This document shows positions 1,094 through 10,773 of a stretch of 14,637 bases of DNA, piece by piece. Position numbers and translations under genes: made by a program. The stretch comes from Acidobacteriaceae bacterium. GTDB taxonomy: Bacteria; Acidobacteriota; Terriglobia; Terriglobales; Acidobacteriaceae. Position 1 is the stretch's first letter. Every line of letters starts with the position of its first letter. Below the pieces are notes generated by a model. That model was given only the letters and a program-made list of their open reading frames with translations, made no database searches and was not told where the DNA came from. The stretch covers positions 5,120 to 19,756 of the forward strand of contig PMTP01000151.1 of the NCBI GenBank assembly GCA_003167305.1. Direction: 5' to 3'.

Positions 1094-2647
1094 TTACCTG
1101 CCCAGATACGTCCGGTATTGCTGCTCAATGATGCCGGCGGCGCGAGCCAGCACCAGCTTCGATAGGTTGTATTGGTAGAGGCTCTCGACCAGATTGCTTT
1201 GCGCGGCGGCCAGCGTGGCTTGCGCGGTGACCAAAGGCAGGTTGTCGTCCACGCCGGCGTTAACGCGGTCGGTCTCGTCGGAGAGGGCGCGGGTGGCGAG
1301 ATCGACGTTGGAGCGGGCGACCTCGACCAGCCTGGCCGTCGCATTCAAGTCGAGCAGAGCCGTACGGACTTGCTGGTCGATGCGGCCGCGCAGGTCGTCG
1401 AGCTGGGCGTTGACGGCGTCCAGATTCGCCTGGGCAGCTTCCGTGTCGCCGCGCAGCTTGGCCTCGCGGAAGAGCGGCAGGCTGAGCGTGCCTACGGCGG
1501 CGAAGTTGCCGTGCGAGCCGGCGCCGCCTACCTGGCTGACCCCGTAATAGCCGCCGAAGCTGAGGCTGGGCAGCCGCTGGCTGCGATAAGCGGCGTGGAT
1601 GGCCTTCATTTCAACGGCCTGATTTTGCAGTGTCTGGTAGTCCTGGCGATTCTTATAAGCAATGGCCCTGACCTCCTCAGGCGTCTGCGCGGCCAGATCG
1701 CTGTAGGGAGCCGGGTCGGTGAGGGCGATCCTCTGGCCGGGGTCGATGCCGATCTCGCGCTTGAGCAGGATCAGGTTCTTTTCGAGGGTGTTCTGGGCGG
1801 CGAGGAGGGCCAGCTCCTGAGCCTGAAGCTGCACCCGCGCCCGCAGTTCGTCCAGATTGGCAGCTACACCGGCCTCGTGAGCCTCGTGGGCATGGCGGAC
1901 TAGCACCTGGTCCGCCGCTTCCAGGGCCCTGGCGTTGTCCACCTCGCTCGCAGCGGCGATAGCGTGCAGATAGGCCGAGGCCACCTGCTGCACTACCTCG
2001 CCGCGAGCCGACATCCTGGCAAAGTGGGCGGCGCGTTCCGCCGCGCCGACTGCCTTCCAGCCGGCGATGACCGGGCCTGAGAAGAGCATCTGGCCAAATT
2101 GAATTTTGCCCTCGGTCAGGTCGTCGCGAGTGATCTCGGAGAACCCTGGGGGCAACGTCCCGCCGGGAAAGAGCGACGAGAACATTTTGATTGTGCCGGG
2201 ACCGAAGCCCATCGCGGCCAGGTTTTGCTGGTGTACGCCGAGGTCGCCGGTGAGAGCGATGGTGGGCAGAAAGTATTGTAGGGCCTCGTTTTTTTGCCCC
2301 TGGAGCGATTTCTCGCCGTTTTCGGCTTCCTTGAGGCCCAGATTGTTCTTGAGGCCGAGAACGATGGCTTCGTCGAGCGAGAGCTTTAGAACCTCGTCGG
2401 TTGCTGGATGGGCGGTCAAGCTGCCGAAGAAGGCGTTGGCGGCGGAAGTGGGGTTGGGTGCCTGGGAGTGGAGCGCCATAGACGCGCCCGCCAGAATCAG
2501 GCCCGCAAGAAGGCCCGGCGCCGCCGTCCGCCGGAAGAGAGAATGATGCGCTCGATTCACTCCTCTTATTCTCTCAGATGAACGAGGCAGCGTGAAGATA
2601 CCGCGAGCGGAGGGAAGACGATCCGCGACAGAACCGGGAAGGTTCAC
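1094..2647 (-). CDS. TolC-family outer-membrane efflux channel protein
   Basis: Outer-membrane exit duct for a tripartite pump or type I secretion system. Two outer membrane efflux protein (OEP) repeats are recognisable. The first begins near LSLDEAIVLGLKNNLGLKEAE; the second covers the C-terminal half, including the region PSLSFGGYYGVSQVGG and the helical LFREAKLRGDTEAAQANLDAV. The N-terminus holds a signal peptide (basic RRTAAP, then hydrophobic GLLAGLILAGASMA). The longest frame starts at a GTG at 2647 that overlaps the trpF TGA (GTGA). However, its first 29 residues look non-coding, and an in-frame GTG at 2560, giving 488 residues with a more usual signal peptide, may be the true start; neither has a well-spaced ribosome-binding site. 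No adaptor, RND or ABC gene is adjacent, so its pump partner is unknown. Confidence 0.85.
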   Translation of the reverse strand: MNLPGSVADRLPSARGIFTLPRSSERIRGVNRAHHSLFRRTAAPGLLAGLILAGASMALHSQAPNPTSAANAFFGSLTAHPATDEVLKLSLDEAIVLGLKNNLGLKEAENGEKSLQGQKNEALQYFLPTIALTGDLGVHQQNLAAMGFGPGTIKMFSSLFPGGTLPPGFSEITRDDLTEGKIQFGQMLFSGPVIAGWKAVGAAERAAHFARMSARGEVVQQVASAYLHAIAAASEVDNARALEAADQVLVRHAHEAHEAGVAANLDELRARVQLQAQELALLAAQNTLEKNLILLKREIGIDPGQRIALTDPAPYSDLAAQTPEEVRAIAYKNRQDYQTLQNQAVEMKAIHAAYRSQRLPSLSFGGYYGVSQVGGAGSHGNFAAVGTLSLPLFREAKLRGDTEAAQANLDAVNAQLDDLRGRIDQQVRTALLDLNATARLVEVARSNVDLATRALSDETDRVNAGVDDNLPLVTAQATLAAAQSNLVESLYQYNLSKLVLARAAGIIEQQYRTYLGR

Positions 2648-3363
2648 GAGGCAGGATTCCCGCTCCTTGCGCGGCGAATAAACTCTCGCACCTTGGCAGG
2701 ATCCTTGCGGCCCGGCGCGGTTTCCACGCCAGAGACCGCATCCACGCCCCAGGGGCGCAGCATGGCAATGGCTTCGGCCACGTTGGCCGGGGTCAGCCCG
2801 CCGGCGGCAACGATGCGCATCGGCGCTCCGGTGTTTTGAAGAAGCGTCTTGCGCGCCGCCTCCCAGTCGAAGGCCAAGCCGGTGCCGCCGACCGCCGTGG
2901 CCGTGCGCGAGTCCATCAGCACCGCGTCCACGTGCGGATTGCGTGCGTGTTCAGCGATCTGGGCCGCGTGCTGCGCGGCACTCTCCGCGCTGAAGTGGAC
3001 CACCCGCAAGACGCGCAACTCCGGCCCCAGGCGCTCGTGCAGCCGGGCGGGCAGTTCGGGCTCCGCGTCAAAGTGCAGTTGCACGCCGGTCAGGCCGCAG
3101 AGTTGAACCGTCGAGACGATCTCCTCCAACCCGGCATCAACGAAGACGCCGATCTTCTCGACGGTGGCCGGCAGGTGTGGCGTGATCGCAGCGACTTCGG
3201 CCGGCGTCACGCGGCGCGGACTGGGCGCAAAGACGAAGCCCACCGCGTCTGCCCCGGCTTTCCACCCCACAGACGAAGACCTGTCTGCGGGGACCCCGGC
3301 TTCGACAGCCACGAGCGCGTCCTCCAGCGAGGTGTTGCCGCAGATTTTGATCCAGATGCTCAT
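2644..3363 (-). CDS. trpF: Phosphoribosylanthranilate isomerase with a 14-residue in-frame insertion
   Basis: Amadori isomerisation of phosphoribosylanthranilate to CdRP in tryptophan biosynthesis; a cytoplasmic TIM barrel. Family signs are KICGNT with the general-base Cys8, the FVFAPSPRRV segment, VLMDS with the probable general-acid Asp151, GGTG (159-162), AAGGL (186-190) and the phosphate-binding VSGVE (210-214). The usual KICGIT reads KICGNT here. At 239 residues it is longer than typical TrpF (about 200-215). Residues 24-37 (VPADRSSSVGWKAG) interrupt the normal VEAG-ADAVGFVF join between helix 1 and strand 2; at DNA level this is a 42-base hairpin insertion between direct repeats. ATGA overlap with trpC and GTGA overlap with the TolC gene indicate coupled translation. 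The core motifs are intact, so it is probably functional. Confidence 0.93.
   Translation of the reverse strand: MSIWIKICGNTSLEDALVAVEAGVPADRSSSVGWKAGADAVGFVFAPSPRRVTPAEVAAITPHLPATVEKIGVFVDAGLEEIVSTVQLCGLTGVQLHFDAEPELPARLHERLGPELRVLRVVHFSAESAAQHAAQIAEHARNPHVDAVLMDSRTATAVGGTGLAFDWEAARKTLLQNTGAPMRIVAAGGLTPANVAEAIAMLRPWGVDAVSGVETAPGRKDPAKVREFIRRARSGNPAS
3252..3302. repeat. 42-base hairpin insertion in trpF with 9-base flanking direct repeats
   Basis: On the plus strand the 9-mer CCCCGGCTT occurs at 3252-3260 and again at 3294-3302, exactly 42 bases apart. Between them lies a hairpin: arm CCCCACAGAC (3265-3274), 8-base loop (3275-3282), arm GTCTGCGGGG (3283-3292). The arms pair at 9 of 10 positions, the exception being a G:T wobble. 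Removing one 42-base unit gives the uninterrupted codons for VEAGADAVGFVF, the standard TrpF sequence. The direct repeats may be a target-site duplication or the ends of the element; the single copy cannot decide. Confidence 0.85.
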
Positions 3364-4181
3364 CGGGCTGCTCCGATCACGACGGCTCCGGCCAACAGAG
3401 CCTTGAGCGCCGCGCCGGGGTCGGGCTGGCGCATCAAGCTTTCGCCGATCAGGAAGGCGTCAAATCCCGCTGCGCGCAGCCGGACCAGGTCTTCGGGCGT
3501 CGCGATTCCGCTCTCGGTCACGCGTACCACTGCGGGCGGTATCCGCGCAGCAAGTTCTAGCGAGGTTTCCAGGCGGACCTGAAAGGTACGAAGGTCGCGG
3601 TTGTTCACACCGATGGCGTCGGCCCCGCTCTCGCCCAGCGCGTTGAGGACACGGTCAAGCTCATCAGCTGTGTGCACCTCGACCAGCACGTCAAGGTTGA
3701 TTGCTCGCGCTGATTCCGCGAAGCGCTTGAGTTCGCCATCGGTGAGCGCGGCGGCGATCAGCAGGATGGCGTCTCCGTGGTGAGCGCGAGCTTCGACGAT
3801 CTGGTACTCATCGACCGTGAAGTCCTTGCGCAGGCAGGGCAGCGGAACCGCGGCAGAAGCCAGCTCCAGGTTGCACAGGCTGCCCTGAAAAAACGGCTCG
3901 TCGGTCAACACGGAAAGCGCCGCCGCGCCGCCGGTAAAGTAGCTCCGCGCCAGCTCAGCCGCGTCAAAATCCGCGCGAATCAGCCCCTTGGAGGGCGAGG
4001 TCTTCTTGATCTCGGCGATGACGGCGGGGCCGGTGGCGGCCTTCCTGCGCAATGCCGCCGCCCATCCGCGCGGCTGATGCAGAGCGGCCAGCCGCTCCAG
4101 CTCCGTTACGGGCACGGACGCCTTGGCCGCGGCCACGGTGGCCCGCGTCGTCGCCAAAATGTTGTCCAGATGAGAAGACAT
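3360..4181 (-). CDS. trpC: Indole-3-glycerol phosphate synthase
   Basis: Converts CdRP, the product of TrpF, to indole-3-glycerol phosphate, with loss of CO2 and water; cytoplasmic TIM barrel. From the ATG at 4181 the protein has 273 residues, the normal family length. Motifs are VIAEIKKTSPSKGLI (about 54-68, with the catalytic Glu and Lys), PCLRKDFTVDEYQI with the catalytic Lys, a VEVH strand end, GVNNRDLRTF, VTESGI and FLIGESLM (phosphate binding). An in-frame GTG at 4217 would add 12 residues (VAAAFLVYSTQG) that do not look conserved, so the ATG is preferred although its ribosome-binding site is weak. Its TGA overlaps the trpF ATG as ATGA. It heads the trpC-trpF-tolC group. Confidence 0.93.
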   Translation of the reverse strand: MSSHLDNILATTRATVAAAKASVPVTELERLAALHQPRGWAAALRRKAATGPAVIAEIKKTSPSKGLIRADFDAAELARSYFTGGAAALSVLTDEPFFQGSLCNLELASAAVPLPCLRKDFTVDEYQIVEARAHHGDAILLIAAALTDGELKRFAESARAINLDVLVEVHTADELDRVLNALGESGADAIGVNNRDLRTFQVRLETSLELAARIPPAVVRVTESGIATPEDLVRLRAAGFDAFLIGESLMRQPDPGAALKALLAGAVVIGAAR

Positions 4182-4192
4182 ACCCTGAGTTG

Positions 4193-4229
4193 AGTATACG
4201 AGGAAAGCAGCGGCCACAACCTATACGAG
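4193..4229. promoter_or_regulatory. trpC upstream region: -10-like box and repeated TATACGAG
   Basis: The octamer TATACGAG occurs at 4195-4202 and 4222-4229, 27 bases apart, in the 99-base gap between the divergent trpC and VWFA-type genes. On the trpC strand TATACT (4198-4193) resembles a -10 box, with TTGTGG 15 bases upstream as a poor -35. If used, it would leave a leader of only about 5 bases before the ATG at 4181, which would fit the weak ribosome-binding site there. Whether the repeated octamer is an operator or chance cannot be told from one locus. Confidence 0.25.
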
Positions 4230-6097: not shown

Positions 6098-8983
6098 TTG
6101 CCGCCGCAGCTCACCAACCTGAATCCCGAACAGCGCGCCGCCGTCGAGGCCACCGAAGGCCCTCTGCTGATTCTCGCCGGAGCCGGCTCGGGCAAGACAC
6201 GGGTGATCACAAGCCGCATCGCCTGGCTGATCCGCGAAAAGGGCGTCGCGCCGGAGTCGATTCTGGCTGTCACCTTCACCAACAAGGCGGCCAGCGAGAT
6301 GGCCGAGCGCGTGGACCGGCTGCTCGACCACTCCTCGCTGGCCAAGCCGCTGCTGTGCACCTTCCACTCCTTTTGCGTGCGCATTCTGCGCCGCGACATC
6401 GAGGCGTTGAAAGTGGGCAAGGAGGGGCTGACCCGCGACTTTGCCATCTACGACGAGAACGACCAGCAGGCCATCGTCAAGCAGATCATGAAGCGCATGG
6501 GCCTGGACACCAAGCAGCTCACACCGCGCACCGTCCTGGGCCGCATCTCATGGGCCAAGAGCCACATGGTCGATCCGCAGGAGTATTACCTCAGCTCCAG
6601 GGATCCCAACAGCGAACGCATCGCCCACATCTTCAAGGGCTACCAGGCCGAGCTGCTCAAATGCAACGCCCTCGACTTCGACGACCTGCTGCTGGAGGCC
6701 GTTCGCCTGCTCAAAGTCTCCACGGAAGCCCGCGAGCGCTACCAGCGCCGCTACCGCTATCTGCTGGTCGATGAGTACCAGGACACCAACCGCCCCCAGT
6801 ACGAGTTGATGAAGCTGCTCGCCGGCGAGCGAAAGAACGTCTGCGCGGTGGGCGACGAGGACCAAAGCATTTATTCCTGGCGCGGCGCCGACATCCGCAA
6901 CATTCTTGAATTTGAGAAAGACTTTCCCAACGCCCGCATCGTCAGGCTGGAGCAGAACTACCGCTCCACTCAGGTGATTCTGGAGGCCGCTGGCGCGGTG
7001 GTCGCCAACAACATCAAGCGCAAAGGGAAGAAGCTGTGGACCGACCGCCAGGGCGGCTCGCTGATAGGCTTCTACGAAGCTCCCGACGGCGAAAACGAGG
7101 CGCTCTTCATCGCCGACCGCATTCAGACCTTCTTGCGCGCGGGAAGCTCGTCCGATACCCAAGAGGCCGGAGGGCATTGCGCGGTGCTCTACCGCACCAA
7201 CGCCCAGTCCCGGCTGGTGGAGGAGGCGCTGCGCCGCTACAACATCCCCTACACTATGGTCGGCGGCTTCAGCTTTTACGAGAGAGCCGAAATCAAGGAC
7301 CTGCTATCTTATCTTCGTTTGATCCGCAACCCCCATGATTCGATGGCCTTGCAGCGGGTCATCAACACTCCCGCCCGCGGCATCGGCAAAACCTCATTGG
7401 AGACCCTGGAGCGGCTGGCTCTGGAGACCGGCGTCTCCACCTGGGAGGCCCTCAGCGCCGCCATCTCGAACCGCCTCATTCCCACCCGCGCGCTGATGGC
7501 CATTGAGTCCTTCCGCCAACTGATTCTCGACGCGCAGGCGATGATGGACCCCGACTTTGCCGGCAAGCTGGCGGCCGACGTGGCTGCCGAGGCGGAATCC
7601 GATGAAGAGGCCGACACCGGCTTTGCCTTTGGCTCAGCCGAGGCCGACTCAGCCAGCGCCGAGTCTGCTACCAGCTTTGATTTTGGCGGCGGCGAGACCT
7701 TTCAGCCTCCGCTTCTCGACGCCGCCAGCATCTCGCCCTTTGCTGCTCAGTCTAAGCGGCCCTTTCTGACCATGCCGAAAAAGGACCGAGTGCCCCAAGT
7801 CCCGATTTTGGGACCTGGGATCGACGATCCGAAATTCGAATCGGAATCCAGCGAAGAAGCGCAAGAAATGCCCGCCTTTCGCAAACCCGGAGACGCGGCC
7901 ACCCTGCCGGAGCTGATCCGCTTCCTCATCGACCGTACCGGCTACATCAAAGCCCTGGAAACCGAAGGCTCGCCAGAGGCTTTCAGCCGCATTGAAAACC
8001 TGAAGGAACTGGCCAACGCCGCCCACGACGCCGAAGCCCGCGGCGAGACTCTGGGCGAGTTCCTCGACCACGCGGCTCTGGCCTCTGACACCGACCAGTT
8101 CGACCCCGAGGCCCGCGTCACGCTGATGACCCTGCACGCCGCCAAGGGGCTGGAGTTTCCGCTGGTCTTCCTCACTGGTCTGGAAGAGGGCCTCTTTCCC
8201 CACTCGCGCACGCTGAACAACCCCGACGAACTGGAAGAAGAGCGCCGCCTCTGCTACGTCGGCATGACCAGAGCGATGAACACCCTCATCCTCAGCCGCG
8301 CGCATTATCGGAGAAGATACGGCAACGACTCCCCGGAGATGAGCATCCCCTCCCGGTTTCTCGAGGAAGTCCCCAGCCAGCTGATCGAAAATCTCGGAGG
8401 CCGGCCCCAATCCTCATCATGGGCCACTCCCGGCTACCCCAAGAGCTACGGGCGCCGCCCCGGCGCTTCAGACGACTTTGCCGACAAGCACTACAACTAC
8501 GAAGACGAAAACCAGGAAGCCTTCGCGGCCGGCGAAAAGCGCTTCGCGCGTGATGGCAATCAGAGCGATGGAGCCAGCGCCAATCGCTCTTCTTCCCAGC
8601 CCATTGCCGCCTCATGGATGACGGCCAAGACTCAACCTGCTTCTACGAGACCAGAATCAGAACCAAAAGTGGTATGCGCGGGAGAGCCGCCGGAAGCGCC
8701 GCGCTCCATCGACAACATTGCACGCTTCTTTGCAGGCAAGTCAGGCCACGGCAAACCCGGCTCGCTTCCCCGTCCAGCATCGGCTCATCCGGCCATGGAG
8801 CAGCCCCAATCCAGCGGCGCTGTCAATTTGAAAAAAGGCCAGCGCGTGCGCCACTCCAAGTACGGCGAAGGCACCATCCTGCTGCGCGAAGGCGACGGCG
8901 AAGACGCCAAGCTCACGGTCCTTTTTTCCCAGTACGGCATGAAAAAGCTGATGGAAAAATTCGCCAATTTGCGCAAGGTTTAG
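6098..8983 (+). CDS. pcrA: PcrA/UvrD-type 3'-5' DNA helicase with acidic insert
   Basis: Superfamily 1A helicase for nucleotide excision repair, mismatch repair and replication-fork clearance. In order: Q motif LNPEQRAAV (8-16), Walker A AGAGSGKT (27-34), TFTNKAASEM, TFHSFCVRILRR (88-99), DEYQD (225-229), VGDEDQSIYSWRGAD, LEQNYRS, TLHAAKGLEF (678-687) and RRLCYVGMTRA (716-726). Residues 909-961 form a Tudor-like C-terminal domain (HSKYGEGTI and GMKKLMEKF), the RNA polymerase-binding module of PcrA/UvrD. At 961 residues it is much longer than the usual 720-780. About 115 acidic, low-complexity residues (485-601) interrupt domain 2 before LPELIRFLIDRTGYIKALE, and residues 770-905 are a disordered linker. 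The start is a TTG; the next ATG (residue 65) would destroy Walker A. It could equally be called uvrD. Confidence 0.93.
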   Translation: MPPQLTNLNPEQRAAVEATEGPLLILAGAGSGKTRVITSRIAWLIREKGVAPESILAVTFTNKAASEMAERVDRLLDHSSLAKPLLCTFHSFCVRILRRDIEALKVGKEGLTRDFAIYDENDQQAIVKQIMKRMGLDTKQLTPRTVLGRISWAKSHMVDPQEYYLSSRDPNSERIAHIFKGYQAELLKCNALDFDDLLLEAVRLLKVSTEARERYQRRYRYLLVDEYQDTNRPQYELMKLLAGERKNVCAVGDEDQSIYSWRGADIRNILEFEKDFPNARIVRLEQNYRSTQVILEAAGAVVANNIKRKGKKLWTDRQGGSLIGFYEAPDGENEALFIADRIQTFLRAGSSSDTQEAGGHCAVLYRTNAQSRLVEEALRRYNIPYTMVGGFSFYERAEIKDLLSYLRLIRNPHDSMALQRVINTPARGIGKTSLETLERLALETGVSTWEALSAAISNRLIPTRALMAIESFRQLILDAQAMMDPDFAGKLAADVAAEAESDEEADTGFAFGSAEADSASAESATSFDFGGGETFQPPLLDAASISPFAAQSKRPFLTMPKKDRVPQVPILGPGIDDPKFESESSEEAQEMPAFRKPGDAATLPELIRFLIDRTGYIKALETEGSPEAFSRIENLKELANAAHDAEARGETLGEFLDHAALASDTDQFDPEARVTLMTLHAAKGLEFPLVFLTGLEEGLFPHSRTLNNPDELEEERRLCYVGMTRAMNTLILSRAHYRRRYGNDSPEMSIPSRFLEEVPSQLIENLGGRPQSSSWATPGYPKSYGRRPGASDDFADKHYNYEDENQEAFAAGEKRFARDGNQSDGASANRSSSQPIAASWMTAKTQPASTRPESEPKVVCAGEPPEAPRSIDNIARFFAGKSGHGKPGSLPRPASAHPAMEQPQSSGAVNLKKGQRVRHSKYGEGTILLREGDGEDAKLTVLFSQYGMKKLMEKFANLRKV
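7794..7819. repeat. Hairpin repeat inside the helicase gene, loop GATTTT
   Basis: Left arm CCCAAGTCCC (7794-7803), loop GATTTT (7804-7809), right arm GGGACCTGGG (7810-7819); nine of ten positions pair. It lies in the codons for VPQVPILGPGI (about residues 565-575), within the non-conserved acidic insert. The hairpin after recA at 10748-10773, read on the minus strand, has the same arm length, the identical GATTTT loop and a preceding GTGCCC. The two therefore look like copies of one element. Confidence 0.75.
7826..7848. repeat. Second imperfect palindrome next to the in-gene hairpin
   Basis: GATCCGA, then 8 bases, then TCGGAATC forms an imperfect inverted repeat (one unpaired base), with a further palindrome ATTCGAAT in its centre. 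It follows the GATTTT hairpin by 6 bases in the helicase insert, codons DDPKFESES. It could be part of the same composite insertion, or could arise by chance from Glu/Ser codons. Confidence 0.3.
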
Positions 8984-9557: not shown

Positions 9558-9646
9558 CCCATCGAAATGCAATCCCGCCGCCGAGCCGTTTCCTGTGAGG
9601 ATTGCAGGAGCCGCGCAAGGCGAGCACACTTTCAGGAGAATCCCCC

Positions 9647-10723
9647 ATGGCAATCGCCGATGACCGCGCCAAGGCCGTAGAACTAGCGCTCGCACAGATC
9701 GAAAAACAGTTTGGTAAAGGGTCGATTGTCCGGCTCGGATCGAAAGAGGCGCTGGTGCCGATTGCCGTGATCTCCACCGGCTCAATCAGCTTCGACGCGG
9801 CGCTGGGCGTGGGCGGTATTCCCCGCGGCCGCGTGACGGAGGTCTTCGGCCCGGAGTCCTCGGGCAAGACAACCATCACGCTCCAGATCATCGCCGAAGC
9901 GCAAAAGGCGGGCGGTCTGGCCGCTTTCGTCGACGTGGAGCACGCTTTGGACCCCAGCTACGCCAAGAAACTGGGCGTGGACATCGATAACCTGCTGGTC
10001 TCGCAACCCGACAGTGGCGAGCAGGCATTGGAGATCACCGAAACCCTGGTCAGGAGTGGAGCCATCGACGTGCTGGTGGTCGATTCGGTGGCCGCGCTGG
10101 TGCCCAAGGCCGAGCTGGACGGCGAGATGGGCGACTCCCACATGGGCCTGCAGGCGCGGCTGATGTCTCAGGCGCTGCGCAAGCTCACCGGCACGGTCTC
10201 GAAATCCCGCACGGCGCTGATTTTTATCAACCAAATCCGCGAGAAGATCGGCGTGATGTTCGGCAACCCCGAAACTACCACCGGCGGCCGCGCGCTGAAG
10301 TTCTACTCCTCGGTGCGCGTGGACATTCGCCGCATCGCCGCGATCAAGGACGGCGACGCGGTCACCGGCAACCGGACCAAGGTCAAAATTGTCAAGAACA
10401 AGGTGGCCGCGCCCTTCCGCGAGGCGGAGTTCGACATTATTTACGGCGAGGGCATCAGCCGCGAGGGCGACGTGCTCGACCTTGCCGTGGCCAACAATAT
10501 TGTCGAGAAGTCCGGCGCCTGGTACGCCTACGCCGGCGAGCGCATCGGCCAGGGCCGCGAAAACACCCGCGCCTTCCTCAAGGAGAACAAGGATGTCTTC
10601 GCCAAGCTGGACGCCGAGCTGCGCAAGAAGCTGGGAATAGGCGGCGCCAAGGCCGACGTTCCCGAAGTCCCCACCGCCGGCCCCGCCGAAGCCAAGGAAG
10701 CCGTCCGGGGGCGCAAGGGATAG
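9647..10723 (+). CDS. recA: Recombinase RecA
   Basis: Forms ATP-dependent filaments on single-stranded DNA, drives strand exchange and triggers LexA self-cleavage in the SOS response. The 358-residue protein has the usual length. Walker A is GPESSGKT (68-75); Walker B ends [10 protein letters not shown] with Asp146; the conserved [21 protein letters not shown] and [26 protein letters not shown] segments include DNA-binding loops L1 and L2. The C-terminal tail is short and mixed in charge ([22 protein letters not shown] has both Asp/Glu and Lys/Arg). The ATG at 9647 has AGGAGA at a good distance (7 bases); the frame is open 45 bases further to a TTG, but that part is not RecA-like. It is monocistronic as far as seen, with a hairpin repeat 25 bases after the stop. 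Confidence 0.98.
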
Positions 10724-10747
10724 GGAATGCATTGCTTCTGGATGATT

Positions 10748-10773
10748 CCCAGGTCTGAAAATCCAGACCTGGG
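10748..10773. repeat. Intergenic hairpin repeat after recA, loop GATTTT on the minus strand
   Basis: Arms CCCAGGTCTG (10748-10757) and CAGACCTGGG (10764-10773) pair perfectly over 10 bases with a 6-base loop. It lies 25 bases after the recA stop, where a terminator would be expected, but no T-tract follows on either strand. Read on the minus strand it matches the in-gene hairpin at 7794-7819 in arm length, loop and 5' flank, so it is better described as a copy of a mobile or dispersed palindromic element. It may still act on recA mRNA 3' ends. Confidence 0.75.

Follow-up and report, generated by a model that had tools for sequence, protein, structure and literature searches.

How a biosynthetic gene of a member of the Acidobacteriaceae came to carry a hairpin between two direct repeats inside its reading frame is the question raised by trpF in the 14,637-nt stretch of DNA analysed here, which we call the window. 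The gene, encoding phosphoribosylanthranilate isomerase (PF00697 in Pfam, 117.5 bits), is the 239-codon ORF at 2644-3363 on the minus strand, and trpC (indole-3-glycerol phosphate synthase, Pfam IGPS) lies directly upstream of it and overlaps it at 3360-4217 on the same strand. Read on the minus strand, the trpF frame is open throughout an in-frame insert of 42 nt, the 14 codons of which specify residues 24-37 with the peptide VPADRSSSVGWKAG. The direct repeat AAGCCGGGG occurs on the minus strand, in gene orientation, as an upstream copy at 3294-3302 and a downstream copy at 3252-3260 (ccccggctt at both places, with a start-to-start distance of 42), and the main stem-loop, recognised from the sequence and from the covariation of the stem in the family, is at 3265-3292 (minus strand). 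The arms of its 10-bp stem, CCCCGCAGAC and GTCTGTGGGG on the minus strand, form 9 Watson-Crick pairs and one G.T pair around the 8-nt loop AGGTCTTC. The whole palindromic element of 38 nt, CC-GGGGT-CCCCGCAGAC-AGGTCTTC-GTCTGTGGGG-T-GG, is at 3262-3299 (minus strand), where a covariance model with 66 distinct copies as its rows scored 62.9 bits, partly by construction as the trpF copy is one of these rows. This was the only strong match of the model in the window and there was none in trpC. A sequence-only reading of this DNA had described the 9/10-paired hairpin and the 42-base spacing, both of which stand, and had taken the duplication made on insertion to be 9 bases. The insertion repeat is, however, 6 bp (GAAGCC): in the downstream copy AAGCC is the repeated target and GGGG its continuation, and the repeat looks 9 bases long because these GGGG are also the first bases of the element, where they form part of the upstream copy. 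The folding energy of the trpF hairpin is unexceptional (z -1.9 as RNA, -1.4 as DNA), and a known RNA family was rejected since the window had no Rfam match at the gathering score.

The insert is absent from most relatives. trpF was matched in 54 of 59 genomes of the genus, and among the 30 orthologous loci read at the site (23 further genomes having matches that were unread) G000, the genome of the window, has one unit, its sister G004 has two in tandem and 28 have none; the site is also empty in the G011 locus and in a second G060 locus. The two solved TrpF chains shown aligned likewise skip the 14 residues, the absence of which from related genomes was a check that the sequence-only reading had asked for, and removal of one unit from trpF gives VEAGADAVGFVF, the sequence found in many relatives, which agrees with its claim that such a deletion restores the usual TrpF join. 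In the predicted TrpF structure, a model of middling confidence (mean pLDDT 68) of which the insert is the poorest part, residues 23-35 have a pLDDT below 50 and lie between a helix at 13-21 and a strand at 40-44. TrpF with the insert presumably remains a functional enzyme. In G004 the gene reads GAAGCC-[36]-GAAGCC-[36]-GAAGCCGGGG, which sets the length of the repeat at 6 bp and that of the element at 36 bp, the preceding CC being common to the target and the foot of the element. The best 120 TrpF proteins from the database, among which unit-bearing matches rank high because the query carried the unit and one protein is without its N-terminus, had 0, 1, 2 and 3 units in 104, 10, 5 and 1 cases, respectively. 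On a tree of these 120 rows made with the insert left out, the presence of the insert (17 rows) switches at least 10 times and well-supported branches force 6 switches, which points to repeated gain, loss or both at one codon. A different in-frame repeat, with 75 nt between its matched parts, was seen at about codon 114 of trpF in L163 (G011 C27:44944-46687), and it consists of hairpin sequences (GGGCACGACTTC..., GGGGGCTTTAGCCCC) like those in which the element is nested in L021 and L025.

Filled and empty sites were found in other genes as well. GatB was matched in 55 of 59 genomes, and of the 30 loci read, matches in 25 genomes being unread, 7 were filled and 23 empty; the inserts measured 39, 42, 42, 42, 42, 54, and 39 nt, they occupy several positions in one loop, and their heads differ. 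In GatB of G000 the 13 added residues are missing from the one solved GatB chain shown. MurD has a 42-nt insert in G000, in G060 the same position holds a copy beside an assembly gap, and 18 of 20 loci were empty and one was not settled, with matches in 34 genomes unread. Lnt has 42 nt in both G000 and G004 and is empty in G010 and two others, these being the 5 of 30 loci that were resolved by motif. Every insert length measured in trpF, GatB, MurD, and Lnt is divisible by three. The mobility of the element is thus largely supported by the comparison of empty and filled sites rather than by observed transposition, and the earlier description of a mobile palindrome that inserted with duplication holds to that extent, with a duplication of 6 bp.

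When the own genome (2.48 Mb, 80% complete) was searched, the exact 28-mer with up to 3 mismatches gave 6 matches and its reversed pattern none, and the 14-nt core GACAGGTCTTCGTC gave 32 exact matches and 9 with one mismatch, 41 altogether, against none for the reversed pattern. With the covariance model at least 46 copies were found there at E <= 0.01, a few of them weak or of sister types, from 150 scored of 1961 first-look candidates. Dozens of copies against none in the reversed control led us to reject a chance hairpin, and these copies, some of them in frame in other genes, are what the sequence-only reading had expected of a mobile unit. They also bear on whether the trpF insert is just a local 42-bp VNTR in a tolerant loop and not mobile at all. 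The 0 to 3 units in TrpF proteins and the tandem arrays of exact 42-nt units in other genes are what a VNTR would give, but within one genome the same 36-38 nt recur with differing flanks in dozens of places, and these dispersed copies refute it as a full account and make it very improbable. Slippage covers the number of units and not their dispersal, and it is kept as a part of the explanation that we prefer, namely that of a mobile palindrome.

Across genomes, nearly all of which are MAGs or drafts, the pattern CCCC-N3-core-N3-GGGG was present in 34 of 60, all of them within the 36 of the same genus, and in none of the 24 sampled outside the genus. In the genus sample the exact pattern was found in 49 of 59 genomes, at 0 to 44 copies per genome. 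A scan of a named genome collection gave 66 DNA stretches, all with titles of Acidobacteria, Acidobacteriaceae or Granulicella; these loci were drawn with a pattern ending in GGGGTGGAA which biases their right flank, whereas the loci from the own genome and its relatives are free of that bias.

The family pattern of 38 nt is CCGGGGTCCCC-NNN-GACAGGTCTTCGTC-NNN-GGGGTGG, with GGGGTCCCC and GGGGTGG as the ends of the element, and 66 of 94 distinct copies align to it without gaps. The consensus of these 66 has a 10-bp stem, CCCCNNNGAC/GTCNNNGGGG, an 8-nt loop, and CC...GG ends paired at the foot, such that the outermost ends pair over 2 nt. Under this structure 94.7% of the cells in the 66-copy alignment are paired, a figure that is flattered because the alignment and the model omit 28 of the 94 distinct copies, including rows with out-of-register ends. 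In the 66 copies, 92 cells were altered on both sides of the stem compared to 35.8 in shuffles, and the covariation score was 0.309 compared to 0.115 in shuffles, with none of 500 shuffles as high and at most 0.055 in slid pairing registers; the number of pairs with a double change was not above that in shuffles (5 and 4.5). In the middle of the stem, two of three positions show five or six of the six standard pair types. With all 94 distinct copies, 93.6% of the cells were paired against 83.5% in shuffles (maximum 85.5%), and there were 122 double changes against 50 (maximum 64). That the hairpin is maintained by compensatory changes suggests that it is required, as DNA or RNA, while the element spreads. 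There are also sister types in which the ends are kept and the head of the hairpin differs: the fetched loci, 1.57 Mb in all, gave 175 places and 22 head types, with none in the reversed control, and the main head accounts for 152 of the 175, the loci having been picked for it.

When reading frames were called by codon usage on both flanks, with strict cut-offs on the score, 39 of 180 distinct sites were inside coding frames and 141 were not. trpF itself falls under the coding cut-off, so that the true number is probably higher than 39 of 180. The count left out sites whose flanks were short (one of 235 core places, duplicates included; in an earlier pass 8 of 148 were unscored). By frame, the 39 copies were 28 in s0, 4 in s1, 2 in s2, 3 in a0, and 1 each in a1 and a2, and in s0 the element encodes the peptide G-V-P-x-D-R-S-S-S-x-G-W. 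Of the 39, 34 are in sense orientation (binomial p 2e-6 for a null of one half) and 28 are in s0, where the phase of coding CCGG and random orientation would give 22% (p 6e-11), both values being for rows that are partly non-independent, as the 39 include the same Lnt insertion from two genomes (L035, L167) and the composite repeats L018, L047, and L193. A lack of stops does not explain the excess of s0 because 17 of 94 distinct copies do have a stop codon in this frame, where they end in GGGGTGA. Tandem units in frame s0 were spaced by 42 nt in five of five cases, whereas at sites not called coding the spacing was 41, 42, and 43 nt in 6, 5, and 2 cases, respectively; the spacing of only 42 nt in genes fits the survival there of multiples of three only. 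In putative viral contigs of IMG/VR the element is carried by 22 stretches (L358-L379) with 23 scored places. Those in L362, L366, and L378 look to be in frame s0 inside ORFs of 373, 258, and 701 codons, respectively, the others are short or doubtful, and one identical site is common to five stretches (L369, L372, L375, L376, L377).

A scan with NCBIfam covered 30 of the 39 coding-frame hosts, of which 17 reached the cut-off, 6 matched below it and 7 matched nothing. Those above the cut-off include, among others, GatB (two genomes), MurD, Lnt, transaldolase/glucose-6-phosphate isomerase, DusB (two), RNase R, a methylthiotransferase of the MiaB/RimO family, NAD+ synthase, TsaB, AlaS, ValS, IspE, RnpA, and an IS5 transposase, and those below it include a second RNase R, pyruvate dehydrogenase E1 alpha and an IS3 transposase.

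The choice of frame bears on two other explanations. Known bypass sites have a hairpin between matching codons, and here too direct repeats flank a hairpin, so that ribosomes might skip the element and make a protein without the insert. Every measured insert, however, keeps the frame (39, 42, 54 nt), and s0 was chosen although copies with an open reading exist for all six frames; such a choice of peptide frame is pointless for a piece that is skipped, and we give translational bypass practically no weight. The other explanation is that the element is mainly an intergenic transcription terminator or mRNA-stability hairpin and that the copies in genes are accidental. The 141 sites not called coding, 40 of them within longer hairpins, and the copies with an s0 stop are in its favour; against this, the coding count is held down by a cut-off that trpF failed, the clearest signature of insertion is that of the gene copies, and the role of a terminator says nothing of how copies dispersed. 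We therefore consider it unlikely and keep to a mobile palindrome that is filtered by selection in genes.

That signature is a short flanking repeat. In the coding-frame copies the 6 bases before the element and the 6 after it were 60% identical compared to 43% in shuffles (maximum 49%), in that register only, and 15 of 39 had a repeat of at least 5/6 matches, where 2000 shuffles gave a mean of 2.2 and a maximum of 8. Registers of 5 and 7 bp, when one mismatch was accepted, gave 2 and 0. Flanking repeats at other copies, which the sequence-only reading had asked about, do recur, therefore, with a length of 6 bp and not 9. At copies not called coding the repeat was weaker, with 13 of 141 at 5/6 or better (shuffles, mean 1.6 and maximum 7). 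CCGG stood at its expected place after the element in 9 of 39 coding-frame copies and in 7 of 141 others, the background being 0.9% per position. The copies not called coding are often within longer hairpins, 40 of 141 having at least 9 complementary flanking bases when 8 were expected, and this, together with their weaker repeat, makes a second mode of spread or co-duplication with composite repeats likely. The element is nested in hairpins with arms of the CCCAGGTC/GACCTGGG type in L018 and L027 and also, within ispE, in L193. The window has an inverted pair of a hairpin-like repeat with such arms at 7794-7820 and 10747-10773, one within a UvrD-like ORF and the other just past the ORF at 9602-10723.

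What moves the element was sought among Y1 transposases. The possibility that it is an ordinary REP moved by an IS200/IS605-like tyrosine transposase (RAYT), and that it lands in genes by chance, is in keeping with the presence of Y1 transposases in 58 of 59 genomes and with the distribution of one RAYT subfamily (E <= 1e-30), since copies of the element are more numerous in the 8 of 59 genomes that have it than in the remaining 51 (Mann-Whitney p 5e-4, kinship ignored). Yet three copy-rich genomes, G011 (30), G004 (24), and G029 (22), are without this subfamily, and a tie between the number of copies and that of Y1 transposases was rejected by a Spearman coefficient of 0.09 (p 0.49). Moreover, the RAYT genes of the subfamily in L238, L239, L241, and L246 are bordered on either side by short hairpins of a different kind, GTGCGGGCG/CGCCCGCAC or near variants. 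The 3' hairpin overlaps the end of the coding sequence, and these hairpins are probably the own REPs of the RAYT genes. In 21 Y1 loci, which amount to about 47 kb and a small fraction of the Y1 matches, the model had only one match, to a sister type inside a Y1 gene, and no transposase tied to the element was found in the Y1/RAYT loci examined. Target repeats are not expected from movement of the IS200/IS605 type, so the flanking repeats also speak against it, and this explanation seems to us doubtful, if conceivable. A sister-type element with the head GCACGAACTTTGTGC lies in frame, after YIHRNP, in the gene for a Y1 tyrosine transposase in G017 (L245:501-539, minus strand). In L005 (about 1435-1681, reverse strand; G000 C205) two tandem units edge a degenerate transposase remnant, reading ...WKGRWRDNVFVERIW, which we take to be IS3-like. 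This tandem pair hinted at a source for the element, but no transposase was recognised at the two other tandem loci read (G004 C3, G017 C94). The palindrome would rather be a non-autonomous one moved by an enzyme that acts in trans.

Among known systems, cyanobacterial short dispersed repeats are similarly tiny and dispersed with filled and empty sites, but these 'very small mobile repeated elements' belong to another phylum. With MITEs the element shares its non-autonomous nature and flanks that resemble target repeats, and as in those of the DDE type a short direct target repeat stands at both ends (6-bp register), but it is far shorter than the 70-300 bp, with terminal inverted repeats of 15-30 bp, given for MITEs in PMC3733652. 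The same paper describes GTAG- and CGTC-tagged REPs as palindromes of 20-40 bp, mostly intergenic and some in ORFs, singly or grouped, which is also true of this element; intragenic ones are reported from Opitutus terrae, Rickettsia conorii, Thauera and others, and the ORFs that bear them include those of tRNA synthetases and repair genes (PMC3733652). There CGTC families have stems of 8-9 bp with loops of 4-5 nt, a terminal CGTC (or TGTC/CCTC) tag and a CCA-like tail (PMC3733652), unlike the Acidobacterial element, which has neither tag and has a 10-bp stem with a CCCC/GGGG foot, an 8-nt loop and 6-bp flanking repeats. Accordingly, a CGTC-tagged REP was rejected on the consensus of the 66 distinct copies, with its stem CCCCNNNGAC, 8-nt loop and CC...GG ends, and a GTAG-tagged REP was rejected as the consensus CCGGGGTCCCC...GGGGTGG has no GTAG and the copies do not flank RAYT genes in the 21 Y1 loci. 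In PMC3733652 the phylum lists of the GTAG and CGTC groups omit Acidobacteria, which are named once, for transposases flanked by inverted repeats. The element is also like the Rickettsia palindromic elements (RPE), which in PMC10969869 and PMC3733652 are likewise palindromes without a transposase of their own that lie in frame in many unrelated genes and encode a conserved peptide. As the sequence-only reading had suggested, the element here is in frame in several unrelated protein genes and is missing from related orthologues. It differs in that an RPE is about 150 bp long (PMC10969869) and the Acidobacterial element is 36-38 bp with a 6-bp target repeat, in its tandem units of 42 nt and repeated use of one codon site in orthologues, and in its phylum, the two being likened by description and not by sequence. 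In the openly licensed literature searched on Acidobacteria and palindromes no description of the family was seen, and in PMC12306157 Granulicella aggregans appears in a table of counts. We conclude that this is a new family of protein-coding palindromes in Acidobacteriaceae that works like the Rickettsia palindromic elements.

The very likely explanation for the trpF insert is that a non-autonomous mobile palindrome entered an ancestral trpF with a 6-bp duplication and that selection and slippage followed. A palindrome of about 36-38 bp would have entered the site GAAGCC^GGGG, duplicating 6 bp of the target and adding 42 nt, or 14 codons, in the barrel loop that joins helix 1 to strand 2. Insertions in genes would survive if the frame is kept, and mostly if the orientation yields the hydrophilic GVPxDRSSSxGW, and slippage between the direct repeats, the presumed cause of gain and loss of units, would then duplicate or lose units to give 0-3 of them at the same trpF codon. 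A wider claim, for which we would put the chances at somewhat less than even, is that of a modular superfamily of mobile hairpins in which the ends, CCGGGGTCCCC...GGGGTGG, are constant and the heads swappable. Such hairpins may spread by a hitherto undescribed route with a 6-bp target repeat, prefer CC^GG and enter essential genes of sister species repeatedly at the same codons, and would thereby act as a natural inserter of in-frame peptide cassettes in free-living Acidobacteria.

Protein-coding palindromes are best known from Rickettsia, where tolerance of them is easily ascribed to reductive intracellular life. Here the same phenomenon is met with in Acidobacteria of soil and peat, in enzymes that are usually essential, and sister genomes retain the empty sites. 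This makes it testable now how hairpins without a transposase spread and how in-frame entry is filtered by selection, as well as at what rate such inserts lengthen protein loops and whether the added peptide is neutral. Caution is also called for in annotation, as lineage-specific insertions of 13-14 residues may be parasitic DNA.
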